From assembly GCA_024640465.1 (NCBI GenBank), contig JAHEEX010000004.1, positions 1 through 50,151 on the forward strand: a stretch of DNA of 50,151 nt. Reading direction: 5' to 3'. The translations under genes and the position numbers were made by a program. This document shows positions 20,672 through 44,896 of the stretch, one piece after another (positions within the stretch are counted from its first letter, which is position 1; every line of letters begins with the position of its first letter). Origin of the DNA: Sphingobacteriales bacterium. GTDB taxonomy: Bacteria > Bacteroidota > Bacteroidia > Chitinophagales > Chitinophagaceae. Under the pieces are notes generated by a model. That model was not told where the DNA came from. It saw only the letters and a program-made list of their open reading frames with translations, and searched no databases.

Positions 20672-21106
20672 ATGGCAGTACAAAATCTCAGCAATCATCG
20701 CCGTTATGTTCCCGGCTTTCATATCCTCACAGCAACCTTATGTGTTGTTGTATTCATAGCATCCATTTTCAATCTTATTCATAACTGGTATGATCCGGAT
20801 AATCATTTGTCTGCGGCCATCATTTTTTTCATTACAATCATCCTGTGTCTGTTCTTCTGGTTCATCAGGAGTTTTGCACTTCGGGCCCAGGACAGGGCCA
20901 TCCGTGCCGAAGAAAGCCTTCGTCATTTCCTCTTAACCGGAAAACCTGTTGATCCAAGGCTTCGCATTGGACAGATCATTGCCCTGCGTTTTGCAAGCGA
21001 TGAAGAACTGGCAGCATTAACCAAAAGAGCAATTGATGAAAGTCTCCGTGCTGATGATATTAAAAAAGCCATCCGGAATTGGAGGGAGGATAAGCACAGG
21101 GTGTAG
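20672..21106 (+). CDS. DUF6526-family membrane protein
   Basis: A 144-residue protein that starts MAVQNLSNHRRYVPGFH, has two membrane helices (about residues 17-37 and 47-66), then a soluble amphipathic tail with LRIGQIIALRFASDEELAAL and a closing KKAIRNWREDKHRV. The NH.RYVPGFH opening and the IKKAIRNWR.D.HRV ending are what I recognise as DUF6526, a small family of unknown function common in Bacteroidota. Its position after the fucosidases with a repeat-bearing gap of 59 nt gives no clear functional link. The stop codon TAG is the start of a heptad array. Confidence 0.72.
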   Translation: MAVQNLSNHRRYVPGFHILTATLCVVVFIASIFNLIHNWYDPDNHLSAAIIFFITIILCLFFWFIRSFALRAQDRAIRAEESLRHFLLTGKPVDPRLRIGQIIALRFASDEELAALTKRAIDESLRADDIKKAIRNWREDKHRV

Positions 21107-21281: not shown

Positions 21282-22742
21282 ATGAAAAATAGTCTTGTAC
21301 AACTGTTTCTGTTTTTTTCAAGTAGTCTTTTCGCACAGAACCCACCCGGGATAAACCTGGTGAAAGAATCCGACCTGAAAAAAGATGTCTATGAAATCTG
21401 TGATCCTTTTTTCCGGGGCAGGGGAGGTGGAACTATTGATGAATTGAATGCTGCAATCTGGCTGGCTGAAAAATTCAGATCTCTGGGTATCAAGCCTGCA
21501 GGTGATCATAATACCTATTTCCAGTATTTTAATCTCTGGCGTAACGAACTTGCCGACCGTTCAAACATCAGTATTAATGGAACTGCTATGCAGATGTGGA
21601 AAGACGTTGCGGTGTCACAACTGACAAACGTATCTCTTGATGCGCCAATTCTTTACCTGGGTGATCCGTTATTGATTGATACTGCAAAGATTGATGTAAA
21701 GGGAAAAGTTATTGCACTACTGGCCAATGGGAAAGACATTAACTTGGATGTATCCCTGCCAACCTGGAGATACAACAGGTATATATATGCTAAATACGGC
21801 TCGGTAATGGTAAGGAAAGGAGCATCGGCGGTGATCTTTTTGGCAGATGATATTGCAGAGCATGCCTGGAATGATGCAGTAGAAAATTTCAGACGCGGGA
21901 CCTATGATATTGATGGCGGTCCAAATATAACTGTAACGGCTACGGTTCCTGTAATCTGGGTCAGGAAGTCAAAGGGAGAAATGCTTAAAAATGGGGCAAC
22001 CATCAAAGCGAACATTATAGTTTCAAAATATCAGTATCCTTCTGTCAATGTGGTGGGGGTGATCCCCGGTACTGATCCCAAATTAAAATCGGAATATCTT
22101 TTACTCAGCAGCCATATTGATGCACATGGGGTACGCAATCCTGTTAATGGTGATTCCATTTATTATGGCGCCGATGATAATGCCAGTGTTACCGCTGCAA
22201 TGATGGCCTCGGCCCGCGCCTTTGTAAAATACCCATCCAGGCGTTCGGTTTTGCTGGTAATCCATGGTTCGGAAGAACGTGGCCTGCTGGGATCCAGGTA
22301 TTTTGCGTCTCATCCAACTGTTCCAATTAGTAGTATCGTTACCGTTTTAAATGGTGATATGATTGGCAGAAATCATCCCGACAGCGCAACGATACTGGGA
22401 GTTGTTTCACCTCATAAAAATTCAACTGAGTTGGTGAACATGGCAATTACTGCCAATGCCGAGGGACCAAAATTTATCCTTGATTCTGCCTGGGATGCAG
22501 TTAACCATATTGAAGGCTGGTATTTCAGGAGCGACCATCTTCCTTATGCACGCCTGGGAATTCCTGCGCTGATGTATACAACATTGTTACATCCAGACTA
22601 CCATACGCCATTGGATAATCCACAAAACATTAACTATCCGAAATTGAAAAAAATGGCCGACTGGATTTATCGCACGGGTTGGAAAGTGGCAAATGCACCG
22701 GTAAGACCTGAGAGGGAGAGTGGTTTTAAGCTGGAACGTTAA
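21282..22742 (+). CDS. secreted M28-family zinc aminopeptidase with PA domain
   Basis: A 486-residue exported peptidase (signal MKNSLVQLFLFFSSSLFAQ). The region around residues 105-240 is a protease-associated insert (PILYLGDPLL, KGKVIALLANG, GASAVIFLADD). The di-zinc M28 core follows: LLSSHIDAHG, YYGADDNASV (bridging Asp), HGSEERGLLGS (catalytic Glu and a ligand), NGDMIGRN and the late RSDHLPYARLGIPAL histidine. It should trim N-terminal residues from peptides in the periplasm or outside. With the M1 enzyme at 5231 and the peptide-binding lipoprotein at 6974 it points to peptide scavenging as a major trait, though the genes are not one operon. Confidence 0.93.
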   Translation: MKNSLVQLFLFFSSSLFAQNPPGINLVKESDLKKDVYEICDPFFRGRGGGTIDELNAAIWLAEKFRSLGIKPAGDHNTYFQYFNLWRNELADRSNISINGTAMQMWKDVAVSQLTNVSLDAPILYLGDPLLIDTAKIDVKGKVIALLANGKDINLDVSLPTWRYNRYIYAKYGSVMVRKGASAVIFLADDIAEHAWNDAVENFRRGTYDIDGGPNITVTATVPVIWVRKSKGEMLKNGATIKANIIVSKYQYPSVNVVGVIPGTDPKLKSEYLLLSSHIDAHGVRNPVNGDSIYYGADDNASVTAAMMASARAFVKYPSRRSVLLVIHGSEERGLLGSRYFASHPTVPISSIVTVLNGDMIGRNHPDSATILGVVSPHKNSTELVNMAITANAEGPKFILDSAWDAVNHIEGWYFRSDHLPYARLGIPALMYTTLLHPDYHTPLDNPQNINYPKLKKMADWIYRTGWKVANAPVRPERESGFKLER

Positions 22743-22869
22743 AGTAGAGGGTAGAGGTTAGAGGATAGTAACAGCCACTAATATCTTTAAATATTGCTAT
22801 CAACTTTCAACTTTTAATTCCAACTGTCTTTACTGACTTCTAATCTCTAACCTCTACCCTCTATCCACT
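22743..22869. repeat. paired 7-nt arrays forming a 19-bp inverted repeat between convergent genes
   Basis: Plus strand after the M28 stop: AGAGGGT, AGAGGTT, AGAGGAT (22746-22766). Minus strand from the esterase stop TAG: AGTGGAT (22869-22863), AGAGGGT, AGAGGTT, AGAGATT, AGAAGTC, AGTAAAG (to 22828), then looser units with AAGTTGA twice. The arms match perfectly over 19 bp (22745-22763 with 22845-22863) around an 81-nt loop. The minus array begins inside the stop codon. Likely a two-way terminator in effect. Confidence 0.8.
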
Positions 22870-23749
22870 ATTTCCCCATCATCCCGGTCTGCGTGAGCCA
22901 ATCGCCAAACAAATTGATCCATTGATCGGAGGGCAGATTTTGTTTGCGCATACCAAAACCATGGCCGCCTGTGGAAAAAATGTGCAGCTCAGCACCCTTT
23001 TTTGCTTTGATCCAGGTGTTATATAAATCGGCACTGGACGGGGCGAATCCAAAGGAATCATCAGTGGCTACACAAATGAATATCGGAGGGGCATCTGCAG
23101 GCACTATGATATCCTTGAAATACGTAGAATATGGATATATGGGTGCGGAAAAGTTAGGTTTGTTGATAGCATCATACCCTAACGTAGCGCCCAGGGTAAC
23201 CGTACCACCTGCAGAGAAACCTATGATGCCAATTTTATTGGGATCTATGCCATACGTTTTTGCATTGGTGCGAACATATTCAATGGCCTTTCTGCCATCC
23301 GCAATACACATCGGGATTATGGTGTCATTGATTTTTTTAGCCATAGCCGGATTGCTTAATCCCTGCATAAATTCGGCAACAGGATCTTCTGACTCTGTTT
23401 TATTAAGACGATATTTTAATACAAAAGCAGTAATCCCTTTTTCTACAGCCCATTTTGCCACGTCAATGCCTTCGCTGTTAATTGACAAAGCCTGGAATCC
23501 ACCGCCCGGAGCAATCACTATAGCGGTTCCGTTTGCTTTGCCTGTTGCTGGTTTATATACGGTTAGGGTAGGGGTAGCCACATTGAAAACCACAGTAGTG
23601 TTCCACGCGTTTTTTTCAAGTGTCTTTTCCGACCAGTTCCAGGTTTCTGATCCGGGGGCTTTGCCGGGATACAATTGAATCACTTGTTGTGCCTGAATAG
23701 TAACAACATGAATAAGTATAGCTATTATAAGCGAGATAGATTTACACAT
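22868..23749 (-). CDS. secreted alpha/beta-hydrolase (acetyl-esterase type)
   Basis: A 293-residue exported esterase. The start at 23749 gives a good signal peptide (MCKSISLIIAILIHVVTIQAQ); the frame extends to 23794 without need. The fold shows TAIVIAPGGGFQALS (oxyanion-hole strand, in the place of HGGG), then nucleophile elbow GFSAGG, an acid in CVATDDSFGF and His in GGHGFGM. This is the pattern of bacterial acetyl-xylan or carbohydrate esterases of the BD-FAE/Axe type; lipase-like substrates are also possible. It is the last of three minus-strand genes (DoxX, thioesterase, esterase) with short gaps, but the products share no obvious pathway. Confidence 0.85.
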   Translation of the reverse strand: MCKSISLIIAILIHVVTIQAQQVIQLYPGKAPGSETWNWSEKTLEKNAWNTTVVFNVATPTLTVYKPATGKANGTAIVIAPGGGFQALSINSEGIDVAKWAVEKGITAFVLKYRLNKTESEDPVAEFMQGLSNPAMAKKINDTIIPMCIADGRKAIEYVRTNAKTYGIDPNKIGIIGFSAGGTVTLGATLGYDAINKPNFSAPIYPYSTYFKDIIVPADAPPIFICVATDDSFGFAPSSADLYNTWIKAKKGAELHIFSTGGHGFGMRKQNLPSDQWINLFGDWLTQTGMMGK

Positions 23750-31258: not shown

Positions 31259-31341
31259 TTGAAAGTAAACCTCATGCGTTTTGCTGCACCAGTTAATGTC
31301 TTCACGAACCATGGCGAAGAAAATAAATTTTGCCACAGACA

Positions 31342-31422
31342 CCACGGATCAACAGCCGGAAAAATGCAAATACAGAGTAGAAAACGGCTGTTACTCCTGC
31401 TGTTTTTCAGTGTATTCCGTGG
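31342..31422. repeat. nested inverted repeat between convergent genes
   Basis: CCACGGA (31342-31348) pairs with TCCGTGG (31416-31422), and inside it AACAGCCG (31351-31358) pairs with CGGCTGTT (31385-31392). It lies between the methyltransferase and the S41 protease. The sequence is related to the GCCACAGAG repeat at 11627 and may serve as a two-way terminator. Confidence 0.6.
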
Positions 31423-31433
31423 CTGATTTTCGG

Positions 31434-36302: not shown

Positions 36303-36489
36303 AGATAATTAGATAATAGATATTGGATATTAGATATAGAAGACAGGGAAAATTTAGCAAATAGAAATAAGCCTATTTAAAAAACAGGTTTTTGATATTA
36401 ATGACTTATGCGATTTAATTCCTTTATCAGAACTAATTATACTTAAAAAGGTTGTATTTATTTGTCTGATATCCAATTATAATTATCAA
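36303..36489. repeat. paired 7-nt arrays in the sdhC-sdhA spacer
   Basis: Plus strand: AGATAAT, one extra T, then AGATAAT, AGATATT, GGATATT, AGATATA (36303-36338). The minus strand around 36489-36463 reads GATAATT, ATAATT, GGATATC, AGACAAA, so the two arms form an imperfect inverted repeat with ATTGGATAT (36322-36330) matching ATATCCAAT (36469-36477). The remaining 241-nt gap is AT-rich with no other feature. Confidence 0.6.
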
Positions 36490-36534: not shown

Positions 36535-38505
36535 ATGCCAGACGCTAAAATTCCAGCAGGACCACTCGAAACCAAATGGACCAAGTATAAAAGTAGTGTC
36601 CGACTGGTAAACCCTTCCAATAAAAGGAAAATAGAAGTTATTGTTGTTGGTACAGGTCTTGCCGGAGCTTCTGCAGCCGCCAGTCTGGGTGAGCTGGGTT
36701 ATAAAGTTAAGGCATTCTGTTACCAGGATTCACCAAGACGTGCGCATTCCATTGCAGCACAAGGAGGTATCAATGCTGCTAAGAATTACCAGAATGATGG
36801 CGACTCTGTTTATCGTCTTTTTTATGATACTATCAAGGGCGGCGATTATCGCGCACGTGAAGCAAATGTATACAGGCTGGCAGAGGTTAGTAATAATATT
36901 ATTGATCAGTGCGTTGCCCAGGGTGTACCCTTTGCACGTGAATATGGCGGTTTACTGAGTAACCGTTCATTTGGTGGCACTCAGGTACAACGTACTTTTT
37001 ATGCTGCAGGTCAAACCGGACAGCAATTGCTGATCGGTGCTTACCAGGCCATGGAAAGACAGGTAGCACTTGGTACTGTTGAAATGTTCAGCCGTCATGA
37101 AATGTTGGAAGTAGTGGTGATAGATGGAAAGGCGCGAGGTATCATTACACGAGACCTGGTAACCGGTAAAGTGGAACGTCATTTCGGTCATGCGGTACTG
37201 CTATGTACCGGGGGATATGGGAACGTTTTTTATCTTTCTACAAATGCAATGGGTTGTAATGTTACAGCGGCATGGAAGGCACACCGCCAGGGTGCTTATT
37301 TTGCCAATCCATGTTTTACACAGATACACCCAACATGTATTCCTGTTAGTGGTGATCATCAGTCGAAGCTAACCCTGATGTCTGAATCATTGCGTAACGA
37401 CGGGCGAATCTGGGTCCCCAAAAAACAAGGAGATAACCGTATTGCTACCGAAATACCTGAAGATGAAAGGGATTATTTCCTGGAACGCCGTTATCCGGCC
37501 TTCGGTAACCTGGTGCCACGTGACGTTGCATCCCGTGCTGCTAAAGAAAGATGCGATGCGGGACACGGCGTTGGAACATCCAAACAAGCAGTATTTCTGG
37601 ATTTTGCTGATGCAATTCAGCGATATGGTAAAGCGGAAGTAAGTAAAAGGAACCTGGGCCAGGTGGATGCGGTTTCGGTTACCCAATTAGGTAAGGAAGT
37701 GATCAAAGAAAAATATGGCAACCTCTTTGACATGTATGAAAAAATTACCGGGGAAAATCCCTATGTAGTACCTATGCGTATATATCCTGCAGTGCATTAT
37801 ACCATGGGTGGTTTGTGGGTTGATTATGAACTTATGACAACCGTAACCGGTTTATACTGTTTGGGTGAGGCCAACTTCAGTGAGCATGGCGCAAACCGCC
37901 TCGGTGCTTCTGCTTTAATGCAAGGCCTGGCTGATGGTTATTTTGTAATTCCATATACCATTGGAAATTACCTGGCTGATGAAGTGGGTAAATCACATAT
38001 CTCTATAGATCATCCCGGATTTATGGAGGCTGAAAAAAAGGTAAGCAAGCATTTGGCGGAACTAATGAAAATTAACGGAAAGCAATCCGTTGAAAGTTTT
38101 CATAAAAGATTGGGTAAGATCATGTGGGATAAATGTGGGATGGCCAGAAATGCTGAAGGACTGAAACAAGCCATTCAAGAGATCAGGGCATTGAAAAAAG
38201 AATTCTGGAGCGACCTGAGAATACCCGGAAAAATCGATGAAATGAATCCTGAACTGGATAAAGCAGGAAGGGTGGCAGATTTCCTGGAACTCGGTGAACT
38301 TATGTGCATAGACGCCCTGGAAAGAAATGAAAGTTGTGGAGGACATTTCAGGGAAGAATACCAAACATCAGAAGGAGAAGCACTTAGGGACGATGCTGGA
38401 TATATGCATGTGGCACAGTGGGAATATTTCCATGATCAATGGAAATTGCATAAAGAACCGTTGAATTATGAAGTGGTGAAACCAAGTCAGCGGAGCTATA
38501 AGTAG
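36535..38505 (+). CDS. sdhA: succinate dehydrogenase / fumarate reductase flavoprotein subunit
   Basis: A 656-residue flavoprotein. The FAD-binding dinucleotide fold is [21 protein letters not shown] (about residues 35-55), and His71 in [13 protein letters not shown] is the site of covalent [31 protein letters not shown] and [19 protein letters not shown] carry the dicarboxylate and FAD contacts. The C-terminal helical domain follows ([24 protein letters not shown]). It oxidises succinate to fumarate in the TCA cycle. Its TAG stop is the first unit of a heptad array. Confidence 0.97.
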
Positions 38506-38548
38506 TCGGGAGTCGGGAGTCAACAGCCAAATGCAGTCGGGAGTAAAT
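38504..38548 (+). repeat. 7-nt repeat array (AGTCGGG units) starting at the sdhA stop codon
   Basis: From the AG of the sdhA TAG: AGTCGGG, AGTCGGG, AGTCAAC, AGCCAAA, a 3-nt break, then AGTCGGG and AGTAAAT. The array is in the sense of sdhA. No inverted partner is seen in the same spacer. Confidence 0.75.
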
Positions 38549-38622
38549 ATTATTAAAAGTTATGGAGAACTTATTACAAAGTATAAAAAGTTGAATTCGC
38601 AAAAGCTTATCATTTTAAAAGA

Positions 38623-38662
38623 ATTCATTAATTCGTTAATTCGCTAATTCGTTAATTGATTA
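38623..38662 (+). repeat. 8-nt tandem repeat directly before the sdhB start codon
   Basis: Five adjacent octamers: ATTCATTA, ATTCGTTA, ATTCGCTA, ATTCGTTA, ATTGATTA. The array ends one base before the sdhB ATG at 38664, so it forms the whole translation-initiation region. A change in copy number would alter this region by 8 nt per unit. Confidence 0.8.
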
Positions 38663-44000: not shown

Positions 44001-44519
44001 CTAAATGATTGGACGTTGAAAGGCCGGTATAATATCGGAAAAAAATTCACCATCGATATGATTGCCCGGAAAATTGTTAATGGACTGTCTACACCAGAGT
44101 TTAATAACAGGAATTATAAAGTGGAAGGAAAATCATTTGAACCAAGATTTACTTATACAAAGGGGACTGTATTCAGGATACAGGCAGGGTACATTATGGA
44201 CAACAAAAACAATACTACCGGAACCGAAAAATCCACAACCAATTCGTTCAATACAGAAGCGAAGTATAATGTATTGTCAAACACTTCTCTCACTGCCCGG
44301 TTTACCTACAGTCAGATAGATTATAATGCATCTCCTAATACTACGGTTTCTTATGTTATGCTGGAAGGCCTGCTTCCAGGTAAAAATTTTCTATGGACAT
44401 TAGACCTCACACAGCGACTGACATCTTTCCTTGAACTAAACTTTCAGTACGAAGGCCGTAAATCCGGAACTTCAGGTATTGTTCATATAGGCCGTGCACA
44501 AATCAGAGCGCTTTTTTAA
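41049..44519 (+). CDS. very large outer-membrane beta-barrel protein, SprA-like in part
   Basis: A 1156-residue exported protein with the TTG at 41049 as proposed start, giving the signal [21 protein letters not shown]; the ATG at 41010 would put 13 extra residues in front and overlaps a -7 box. The N-terminal third contains [32 protein letters not shown], and [21 protein letters not shown], a pattern I associate with repeats in SprA-type translocon proteins and a group of unnamed Bacteroidota barrels. The rest is a long run of amphipathic beta strands ending RAQIRALF, as an outer-membrane barrel should. There is no plug domain or TonB box. It is about half the length of SprA, so it is not that protein. 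A role in outer-membrane transport or structure is inferred only. Confidence 0.75.
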   Translation: [1156 protein letters not shown]

Positions 44520-44520
44520 A

Positions 44521-44615
44521 AGTGGAAAATCGAAAGTCGAAAATGGAAAGTGGAAAGGCAGTCGCCAGTCAACAATCGCCAGTCACCAGTCACCAGTCAA
44601 CAGTCACCAGTCACC
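44521..44615 (+). repeat. two adjoining 7-nt repeat arrays, 13 units
   Basis: Directly after the barrel gene stop: AGTGGAA, AATCGAA, AGTCGAA, AATGGAA, AGTGGAA (44521-44555), a 4-nt joint, then AGTCGCC, AGTCAAC, AATCGCC, AGTCACC twice, AGTCAAC and AGTCACC twice (44560-44615). Register is strict within each block. The first block matches, in inverted orientation, part of the 60-bp repeat at 44724. Confidence 0.9.
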
Positions 44616-44723
44616 AAAAACAGCCCTGATTAATAGTAAACTGGTTTAAAAAAAGACTAACAAAAATGAAAAGCAATATCAAATATCCAATTTGAAATCA
44701 AGCATTTTTTCCTTTCTAAACTT

Positions 44724-44896
44724 CCTGGCTGTTTCTGCATTTTATTTTCTCTTTTCGATTTTCCACTTTCGATTTCTCTCTCGCCTGGCTGTTTCTGCAT
44801 TTTATTTTCTCTTTTCGATTTTCCACTTTCGATTTCTCTCTCGCCTGGCTGTTTCTGCATTTTATTTTCGCTTTTCGATTTTCCACTTTCGATTTC
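44724..44896 (-). repeat. 60-bp tandem repeat, nearly three copies
   Basis: The period is exactly 60 nt: 44724-44783, 44784-44843, and a partial copy 44844-44896 with one substitution. On the minus strand each copy contains heptads such as AGTGGAA, AATCGAA and AAGAGAA, the same units as the plus array at 44521, so the whole 432-nt spacer is a large inverted structure. The period is a multiple of three, so frames stay open on both strands; I do not regard these as genes. Between 44616 and 44723 I see nothing specific. Confidence 0.92.

Follow-up and report, generated by a model that had tools for sequence, protein, structure and literature searches.

The heptad arrays found between the genes of this Sphingobacteriales genome probably represent paired arms belonging to small cassettes of the intervening-sequence (IVS) type, which are bounded by inverted repeats and in their full copies harbour an IVP gene. 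This gene belongs to the 23S rRNA intervening-sequence-protein family (IVP/S23p, PF05635, TIGR02436), a "four helix bundle", and the full cassette reads as a 5′ arm of AG-type heptads in sense, one IVP/S23p gene, a 3′ arm that is the reverse complement, and then the next gene. Physical linkage of heptads with IVP genes is established in Bacteroidota and on cyanobacterial plasmids, as are the complementarity of the arms, the link between IVP clade and repeat period, the match of array units to the genome's own IVP arms, and the occurrence of a single orthologous site in three states. A given cassette lineage uses a unit of its own, and the period, either 7 or 8, tracks the IVP subfamily. The IVP gene is the likely owner of the heptad repeats.

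The window element and its companion arrays

The window is the whole stretch of DNA analysed, 50,151 nt in length, and is one contig of a 3.8-Mb, 330-contig genome. It contains the following features.

21282-22742, plus strand: peptidase M28 gene, 5′ neighbour of the element (Pfam PF04389)
22743-22768, plus strand: 5′ arm, period-7 AGAGGGT AGAGGTT AGAGGAT in sense, just 3′ of the M28-peptidase stop (direct reading, TRF, own period scan)
22745-22863, no strand: exact 19-bp inverted repeat (22745-22763 with 22845-22863) plus loop (sequence, RNA fold)
22835-22869, minus strand: opposite arm, AGTGGAT AGAGGGT AGAGGTT AGAGATT AGAAGTC, starting within the hydrolase TAG (direct reading, TRF, period scan)
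22868-23683, minus strand: alpha/beta hydrolase (BD-FAE/DLH), the convergent gene
36303-36340, plus strand: period-7 array AGATAAT/AGATATT after the stop of an sdhC-like gene (TRF); the unit matches no IVP arm
38504-38521, plus strand: AGTCGGG array starting within the sdhA TAG, unit of the IVP locus L255 family (TRF, unit match)
38622-38662, minus strand: period-8 array of AATTCGTT type in 3′-arm orientation, just before sdhB (TRF); resembles arms of the octad IVP subfamily
44519-44557, plus strand: AAAGTGG/AAAATCG/AAAGTCG array at a stop codon, units of the IVP locus L257 family (TRF, period scan)
44559-44616, plus strand: CAGTCGC/CAGTCAC array, units of the IVP locus L256 family (TRF, period scan)
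44724-44896, minus strand: 60-bp tandem repeat (2.9 copies) with 3′-arm-type units TTTTCGA and TTTCCAC of the L257 family (TRF, unit match)

Direct reading bore out the original prediction's description of heptads running in sense from both stop codons and of a 19-bp inverted repeat. The M28-peptidase gene ends in TAA at 22740-22742 on the plus strand, with heptads of this arm running from 22746. On the minus strand AGTGGAT begins inside the hydrolase TAG (22870-22868), and is followed in register by AGAGGGT, AGAGGTT, AGAGATT, AGAAGTC and AGTAAAG. The matched arms proposed for this convergent pair are likewise exact over 22745-22763 and 22845-22863, and RNA of 22735-22875 is predicted to fold at -43.4 kcal/mol (z = -7.4 against shuffles). 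Thus the element has the complementary, stem-forming ends of an rRNA IVS (19-bp exact arms, fold z of -7.4), whilst the insertion into a 16S or 23S rRNA helix is not found, the window copies lying between protein genes. The window gave no Rfam match that reached the gathering score. The loop leaves too little room for an IVP gene, which makes the window element an ORF-less (miniature) copy; IVP ORFs are absent between the arms of the window copies, and cassettes built from these units at the loci L253 and L255-L257 of this genome do contain them. The consensus unit of the 5′ arm (GTAGAGG) is identical to an arm unit of L253, one of the genome's own IVP loci, and that of the opposite arm is 1 base off the L253 arm units.

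With regard to the other sites at which the design had been reported to recur, those at 38504 and 44519 (originally placed at 44521) are solid and that at 36303 is real, although its consensus TAGATAT (36310) could be matched to no own IVP arm. The site at 21105 was dropped, as it comprises two units only and was reported by neither TRF nor our own detector. Unit sequences do differ between sites, as had been noted, though they do not vary freely: of the seven arrays in the window, six have units identical to, or 1 base from, the arms of IVP genes elsewhere in the genome, with GTAGAGG corresponding to L253, AGTCGGG to L255, CAGTCAC to L256, and both AAAGTGG and TTTTCGA to L257. What had been taken for a lone array made at gene ends is better read as an arm belonging to a hairpin cassette, which in its complete version includes an IVP gene. 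That heptads are actively made or copied is a plausible suggestion. When the genome was searched with the DNA of the element, no near-identical second copy was returned, such that recent movement is not seen.

A separate ORF-less palindrome at 31332-31425 has, by eye, the look of a GxxExxY cassette (GCCACAGACACCACGG...CCGTGGCTG). GxxExxY (PF13366) genes also reside within palindromic cassettes between genes (L260, L262, L263, L266-L268, L272 and L273), with arms of CACAGAG/CGCAGAG/ACGCAAAG type that lack period 7 and give pairing scores of 11-41 (14 located of 35). As an alternative cargo for heptad arms these genes were rejected, period 7 being found at the flanks of none of the 14 loci, of 35, that could be located by motif.

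Number, placement and units of the heptad arrays

A period scan of a 304-kb sample of the genome detected 40 intergenic arrays of period 7, where Markov shuffles yielded 0.0 on average. In the same sample there are 0-2 arrays at periods 4-6, 8-13 and 15, and 27 at period 14, which is a multiple of 7. In 697 kb, equal to 18 % of the genome, gene calls from our own codon-score caller, used for the 304-kb sample and G120 as well, place 60 of 62 period-7 arrays in intergenic DNA, and extrapolation from 78 arrays in this 18 % gives roughly 400 per genome, against seven IVP genes. Tandem 7-nt units that are intergenic and genome-wide, as in STRR and long simple sequence repeats, are thus found here.

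One explanation for such abundance is slippage alone, in which the polymerase favours 7-nt steps and heptads grow wherever they are tolerated, i.e. in spacers; the idea is Mrazek's, as cited in PMC4679880 and PMC4692102. It accommodates the 7-nt length steps between strains of Coxiella (PMC4990558) and Cyanothece (PMC4679880), the almost exclusively intergenic location, and the occurrence of long near-perfect arrays, such as that of CCGTCAA in L016. It does not predict reverse-complementary partners in a fixed order, yet neighbouring arrays in one spacer are +- in 13 cases, ++ in 3, -- in 3 and -+ in 0, i.e. left arm then right arm and never the reverse, with orientation set by the IVP arms and not by genes. 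Also unpredicted are adjacency to stops and not to starts (33 and 0 of 61 arrays), the match to IVP-arm vocabulary, and the 8-nt arms of one IVP subfamily. As a complete account slippage is quite unlikely; as a second step acting on cassette arms it is probably real.

In two genomes of a different family, G116 (L139-L142) and G151 (L132), many arrays are strongly degenerate, with fields that keep a 7-nt register for up to ~110 nt, some having a constant CAGT with three variable bases, an arrangement that is hard to obtain by slippage alone.

Placement was evaluated for the 61 arrays to which a unit could be assigned and whose neighbouring genes were known on either side. A stop codon lies within 10 nt of 33 of these, whilst uniform placement gives 7.6 (sd 2.3, maximum 17 in 2000 draws); a start codon lies equally close to none (1.8 expected). 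All 26 of the orientable stop-adjacent arrays are in sense. The genome-wide, sense, stop-adjacent 7-nt design of the original prediction was in this way upheld, the check on stop and sense preference and on excess over shuffles having failed to refute it.

Given this position, the arrays might be thought of as bidirectional terminators, or as hairpins that stabilise 3′ ends and owe their position there to selection, their heptad content being incidental. A stable, stop-adjacent hairpin at a convergent junction is what would be expected of these, and 27 of the 61 arrays do lie in convergent spacers. However, 31 of 61 occupy co-directional spacers, and arrays are found inside likely operons (sdhC-sdhA-sdhB, and cyanobacterial cas6-cas4 and cas10-cmr3). 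Since linkage to IVP and the period itself are also left unexplained, termination is improbable as the origin of the arrays, although it may be a side effect that eases tolerance of cassettes.

With regard to the units themselves, AG as a key feature, and the special status given to units beginning with it, had to be abandoned: AG occurs on either strand in 59 of 78 consensus units, against 57.3 when shuffled. AGT is enriched amongst consensus units (37 against 20.1 shuffled), and a common motif, approximately A-R-T-N-R-A-A, fits 196 arrays with a score of 495, compared with 399-409 for column-shuffled units. Amongst the genome's arrays outside IVP loci, 51 of 74 consensus units recur exactly in the arms of the seven IVP loci (5.0 when shuffled) and 68 of 74 are within one base of an arm unit (38.6 when shuffled); four arrays of contig C260 were excluded from this comparison because they surround an IVP locus. 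The seven IVP loci together cover 69 % of sampled arrays exactly, whilst seven random array spacers cover a mean of 49 % (sd 10), with 1.6 % of draws as high. AAGGAAT units are shared by the sister IVPs L258 and L259. From 400 kb of a second genome, G120, only 12 arrays were obtained, of which four match an IVP arm exactly (1.0 when shuffled); matching within one base is no better than shuffled (9 of 12 against 8.4), a comparison with little power, and arms were not seen at two of its six IVP loci. In their orientation pairs and vocabulary match the arrays share a trait of REPIN/RAYT systems, namely palindromic doublets dispersed in spacers with a family tied to an owner gene.

The units also bear on the proposal, made for GGGNATC in Xanthomonas and Nostoc (PMC4692102), that such repeats are G-quadruplex elements. 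GGGNATC obeys the same placement rule, lying within 50 bp of a stop on the coding strand (PMC4692102). The units AAAGTCG, CAGTCAC, GTTGACA and AATAAGG contain no G-tract of three, the TAGAGGG family of the window has a single GGG in some units only, and four G-tracts are not found in the units, which makes a quadruplex role extremely improbable here.

IVP genes and the period of their arms

The heptad-IVP linkage was evaluated at 37 loci, comprising the 30 best-scoring Bacteroidota loci (not a random draw) and all seven of the genome itself. With arrays counted at a score of at least 8, period-7 arrays are present on both flanks at 22 of the 37, the other 15 missing this cut-off, compared with 1.5 % of 336 controls, which were genes of 70-220 aa taken from the same genome and Chitinophagaceae relatives. 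Other periods between 5 and 12 are found on both flanks at only 0-2 of the 37. Arm pairing has a median score of 16, against 10 in permuted pairs, with 15 of 37 loci at or above the 99th percentile, and the full element of L253 folds with a z of -7.9 (20 shuffles). Amongst the genome's own IVPs, L253-L258 are above the Pfam cut-off and L259 is below it. The TIGR02436 cut-off is exceeded by L253-L257, L188, L298 and L317. Five of eight IVPs give sub-cut-off matches to NF033474 (Avd), and 4DWL and 2GSC are homologous (PMC10053308). The two solved IVP structures that could be located, 2rld and 2gsc, each comprise five chains as deposited. The arms mostly comprise 4-5 units, a number shaped by the detector; because its threshold sets the lower end of the count, unit number was not used as evidence for a pentamer. 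RRM proteins (RbpB) were considered as binders and dropped, as they bind single-stranded, AU-rich sequence without heptads (PMC11697453).

Of 296 Bacteroidota genomes, 191 contain a heptad pattern defined as five AGT spaced 7 nt apart. The distribution is patchy, ranging within one genus from hundreds of overlapping matches to none. A control with the pattern reversed also matches many genomes; as this fits other heptad units, the pattern counts heptad arrays generally and not AGT as such. PF05635 is present in 232 of the 296, and the pattern occurs in 182 of these as opposed to 9 of the 64 without IVP (P = 3e-21; genome-level IVP, heptad and Y1 counts were transcribed by hand). Within a single family the corresponding values are 34 of 50 and 1 of 14. 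The pattern is lacking in 50 IVP-positive genomes.

These data can also be turned around, such that the heptad palindromes would form a repeat family of their own, into which IVP genes insert by preference as passengers. ORF-less arrays far outnumber IVP genes, GxxExxY (PF13366) genes occupy other palindromes, and nine IVP-free genomes do have arrays, one with 158 matches. Against this, 55 of the 64 IVP-free genomes lack the pattern, periods differ by IVP subfamily, and IVP loci cover 69 % of arrays where random spacers cover 49 %, so that reversed causality is unlikely. Another candidate owner is the Y1 (RAYT) transposase, which would move the arrays as REP/REPIN-like elements. Palindromic doublets in spacers are suggestive of this, the genome has one Y1_Tnp gene, and Y1 correlates with the pattern (157 of 210 genomes with Y1 against 34 of 86 without). 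However, the effect of Y1 is weak once IVP status is given (P = 0.047 with IVP, 0.07 without), whilst that of IVP is strong given Y1 status (P = 6e-8 and 8e-9), and in G190, where the pattern matches 167 times, there is no match to Y1. RAYT was rejected as owner, since Y1 presence explains less than IVP presence, and a RAYT-driven origin is very unlikely. The probabilities assigned to all of these rival explanations are not exclusive of the IVP cassette as the main one.

The STRR of cyanobacteria are heptanucleotide repeats. A kinship with these, which the original prediction had suggested, was upheld. A plasmid search for IVP listed 30 records, of which 24 are cyanobacterial; the 16 examined (H1-H12, H14, H15, H17 and H24) are all cyanobacterial, and some are close relatives. 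A period-7 array lies upstream of the IVP gene in 14 of the 16 and on both flanks in 9, with the both-flanks test failing at the other 7. Other periods, which serve here as the comparison in place of control genes, occur on both flanks in 0-3 of 16 (3 being period 8). In Nostoc edaphicum the IVP gene is surrounded by GTAGGGA...TCCCTAC and lies between ribonucleotide-reductase genes. Some cyanobacterial IVP cassettes adjoin conjugation genes. IVP cassettes were also seen on cyanobacterial plasmids between cas6 and cas4 (L295 and L300, the latter being type I-D), and between cas10 and a cmr3-family gene of type III-B (L304). In the 23S rRNA IVS of Coxiella burnetii, S23p stands behind tandem GACAGAT heptamers at the 5′ end, the number of which varies by one unit between strains, and an RNase III site is located at the first repeat (PMC4990558). 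Heptads therefore accompany the IVP ORF in rRNA too.

The period is not always 7. In several Chitinophagaceae relatives the sdhA-sdhB spacer contains 8-nt repeats of AATTTGAA type at, or soon after, the sdhA stop, and the reverse complement of these octads before sdhB. Nine relatives harbour an IVP ORF inside this spacer, those of L171 and L219 being short and broken. The sdh-linked IVPs are a distinct subfamily, and their loci are octad in 9 of 9 cases. In 30 octad-subfamily loci, taken as the best-scoring matches in the class to the sdh-linked IVPs and not as a random draw, period 8 exceeds period 7 in all 30 (weakly in a few). Under a stricter rule (best of periods 5-12, score at least 10) 25 are octad, 1 is tied, 3 have none and 1 has period 9. 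These loci display various insertion sites and differing units (AATTTGAA, AATTAGCG, AATGTGCG and others). Amongst the other 53 loci (the 37 and 16 above), period 7 is the stronger in 45 and period 8 in the remaining 8.

A tree of 91 IVPs, from 92 rows (L338, with period 9 and an internal stop, was too short and left out), shows clustering of the period labels, with 0 of 500 shuffles as low, a value that near-copies help to produce. One clade of 40 rows comprises 33 octad, 3 heptad, 3 unlabelled and 1 tied, and the remaining 51 rows comprise 38 heptad, 6 octad, 6 unlabelled and 1 of period 9. Rows that depart from this division comprise three heptads on long branches within the octad clade. In the heptad part they comprise a small group that includes three octads, two octads from cyanobacteria, and a single octad row whose branch is very long. 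By eye, a second IVP group in the heptad part (L225, L226, L234, L252, L241 and L244) has octad arms; its labels are three octad, one period 9 and two none. It seems that the IVP repeat period has switched more than once.

At the sdhA-sdhB spacer itself, 81 rows comprise 53 that are short, 9 with IVP, 8 with arms only (the window included), 9 others and 2 undetermined, with classes assigned by reading, such that L150, L169 and L185 were placed in 'other' rather than 'arms', and L199 and L218 in 'IVP'. The window sdhA shares 89 % identity with its counterpart in a Chitinophagaceae MAG. On the sdhA tree the IVP label requires 7 changes, 3 of them forced by well-supported branches, with gains and losses not told apart; the arms label also requires 7, of which 6 are forced in this way. 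In L150 the spacer has a different small ORF (METFQIIQITFWAVTALGVWLTWQTF..., by eye) near heptads, and other cargo may therefore exist. Two contigs titled Beijerinckiaceae and Sphingomonadales (L169 and L203) have an sdhA that falls amongst the Chitinophagaceae rows, and are probably mislabelled MAG contigs.

Proposed behaviour and comparison with known systems

Taken as a mechanism, an IVP multimer would bind its repeats with one subunit per unit, and this binding could allow cassettes and ORF-less hairpins to spread or persist in transcripts. Paired arms would fold the insert out of the mRNA, keeping the neighbouring genes translatable, and would probably be cut by RNase III, with slippage in 7- or 8-nt steps perhaps lengthening or shortening the arms afterwards. 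The cassette might be selfish or mobile, like rRNA IVSs, and the ORF-less hairpins would be dependants of IVP, as REPINs are of RAYTs.

What heptanucleotide repeats do in bacteria and what S23p/IVP does are long-standing questions, and the accounts available leave the role of both open (PMC4679880, PMC4990558, PMC4692102). Linking them provides the protein with a candidate ligand and the repeat with a candidate owner, and would explain the sense placement at stops, the inverted pairs, the differences in unit, and the choice of period 7 or 8. For annotators, IVP cassettes inside operons, those of cas genes included, could be mistaken for operon members or CRISPR-linked genes. Already in print are the heptad repeats, rRNA IVSs with S23p, and the stop and sense placement of GGGNATC (PMC4679880, PMC4990558, PMC4692102). 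Within the titles and abstract openings listed in searches of an open-access library, heptad arrays as arms of IVP cassettes were not found, nor were the unit-IVP link or an octad IVP subfamily found stated.

STRR, TAACTGA (PMC4679880) and GGGNATC (PMC4692102) are, like the arrays described here, 7-nt intergenic tandem repeats, and GGGNATC shares their stop and sense placement (PMC4692102). Mixed heptamer arrays have been noted in Bacteroidetes (PMC4679880, PMC4692102), and long simple sequence repeats of 5-11 nt were described by Mrazek in 2007, as cited in the same two papers. The accounts of TAACTGA and GGGNATC, in the parts accessible, make no link to IVP genes, paired cassette arms or a period-8 subfamily (PMC4679880, PMC4692102). 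The likeness to REPIN-RAYT systems resides in dispersed, ORF-less hairpin doublets whose families are tied to owner genes with repeats nearby (PMC3116915). The owner differs, being a four-helix-bundle protein rather than a Y1 (HUH) transposase, as the genes inside the arms are IVP and Y1 is not required, and the repeats are period-7 or period-8 arrays. Avd of diversity-generating retroelements belongs to the same protein superfamily as IVP (sub-cut-off NF033474 matches; PMC10053308), whilst for the 16 cyanobacterial IVP genes an incomplete gene table names no reverse transcriptase amongst the features lying up to 900 nt away.

A close resemblance is also seen to the rRNA IVS with S23p, which is likewise a small cassette with complementary ends, a single S23p/IVP ORF and 5′ tandem heptamers (PMC4990558). 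The cassettes described here differ from it in lying between protein genes at stops, in being mostly ORF-less, in numbering many per genome, and in having unit families that match particular IVP loci. A broader reading, offered tentatively and thought somewhat less probable than its negation, is that these constitute a novel class of mobile or selfish nucleic-acid element, in which a multimeric, Avd-related four-helix-bundle protein, neither a transposase nor a reverse transcriptase, would read 7- or 8-nt arrays with each subunit taking one unit, and would in this way disperse hairpin cassettes and the ORF-less forms derived from them into stop-start gaps of Bacteroidota and Cyanobacteria. The rRNA IVSs would then be its rRNA-resident branch, with STRR, TAACTGA and GGGNATC as traces.
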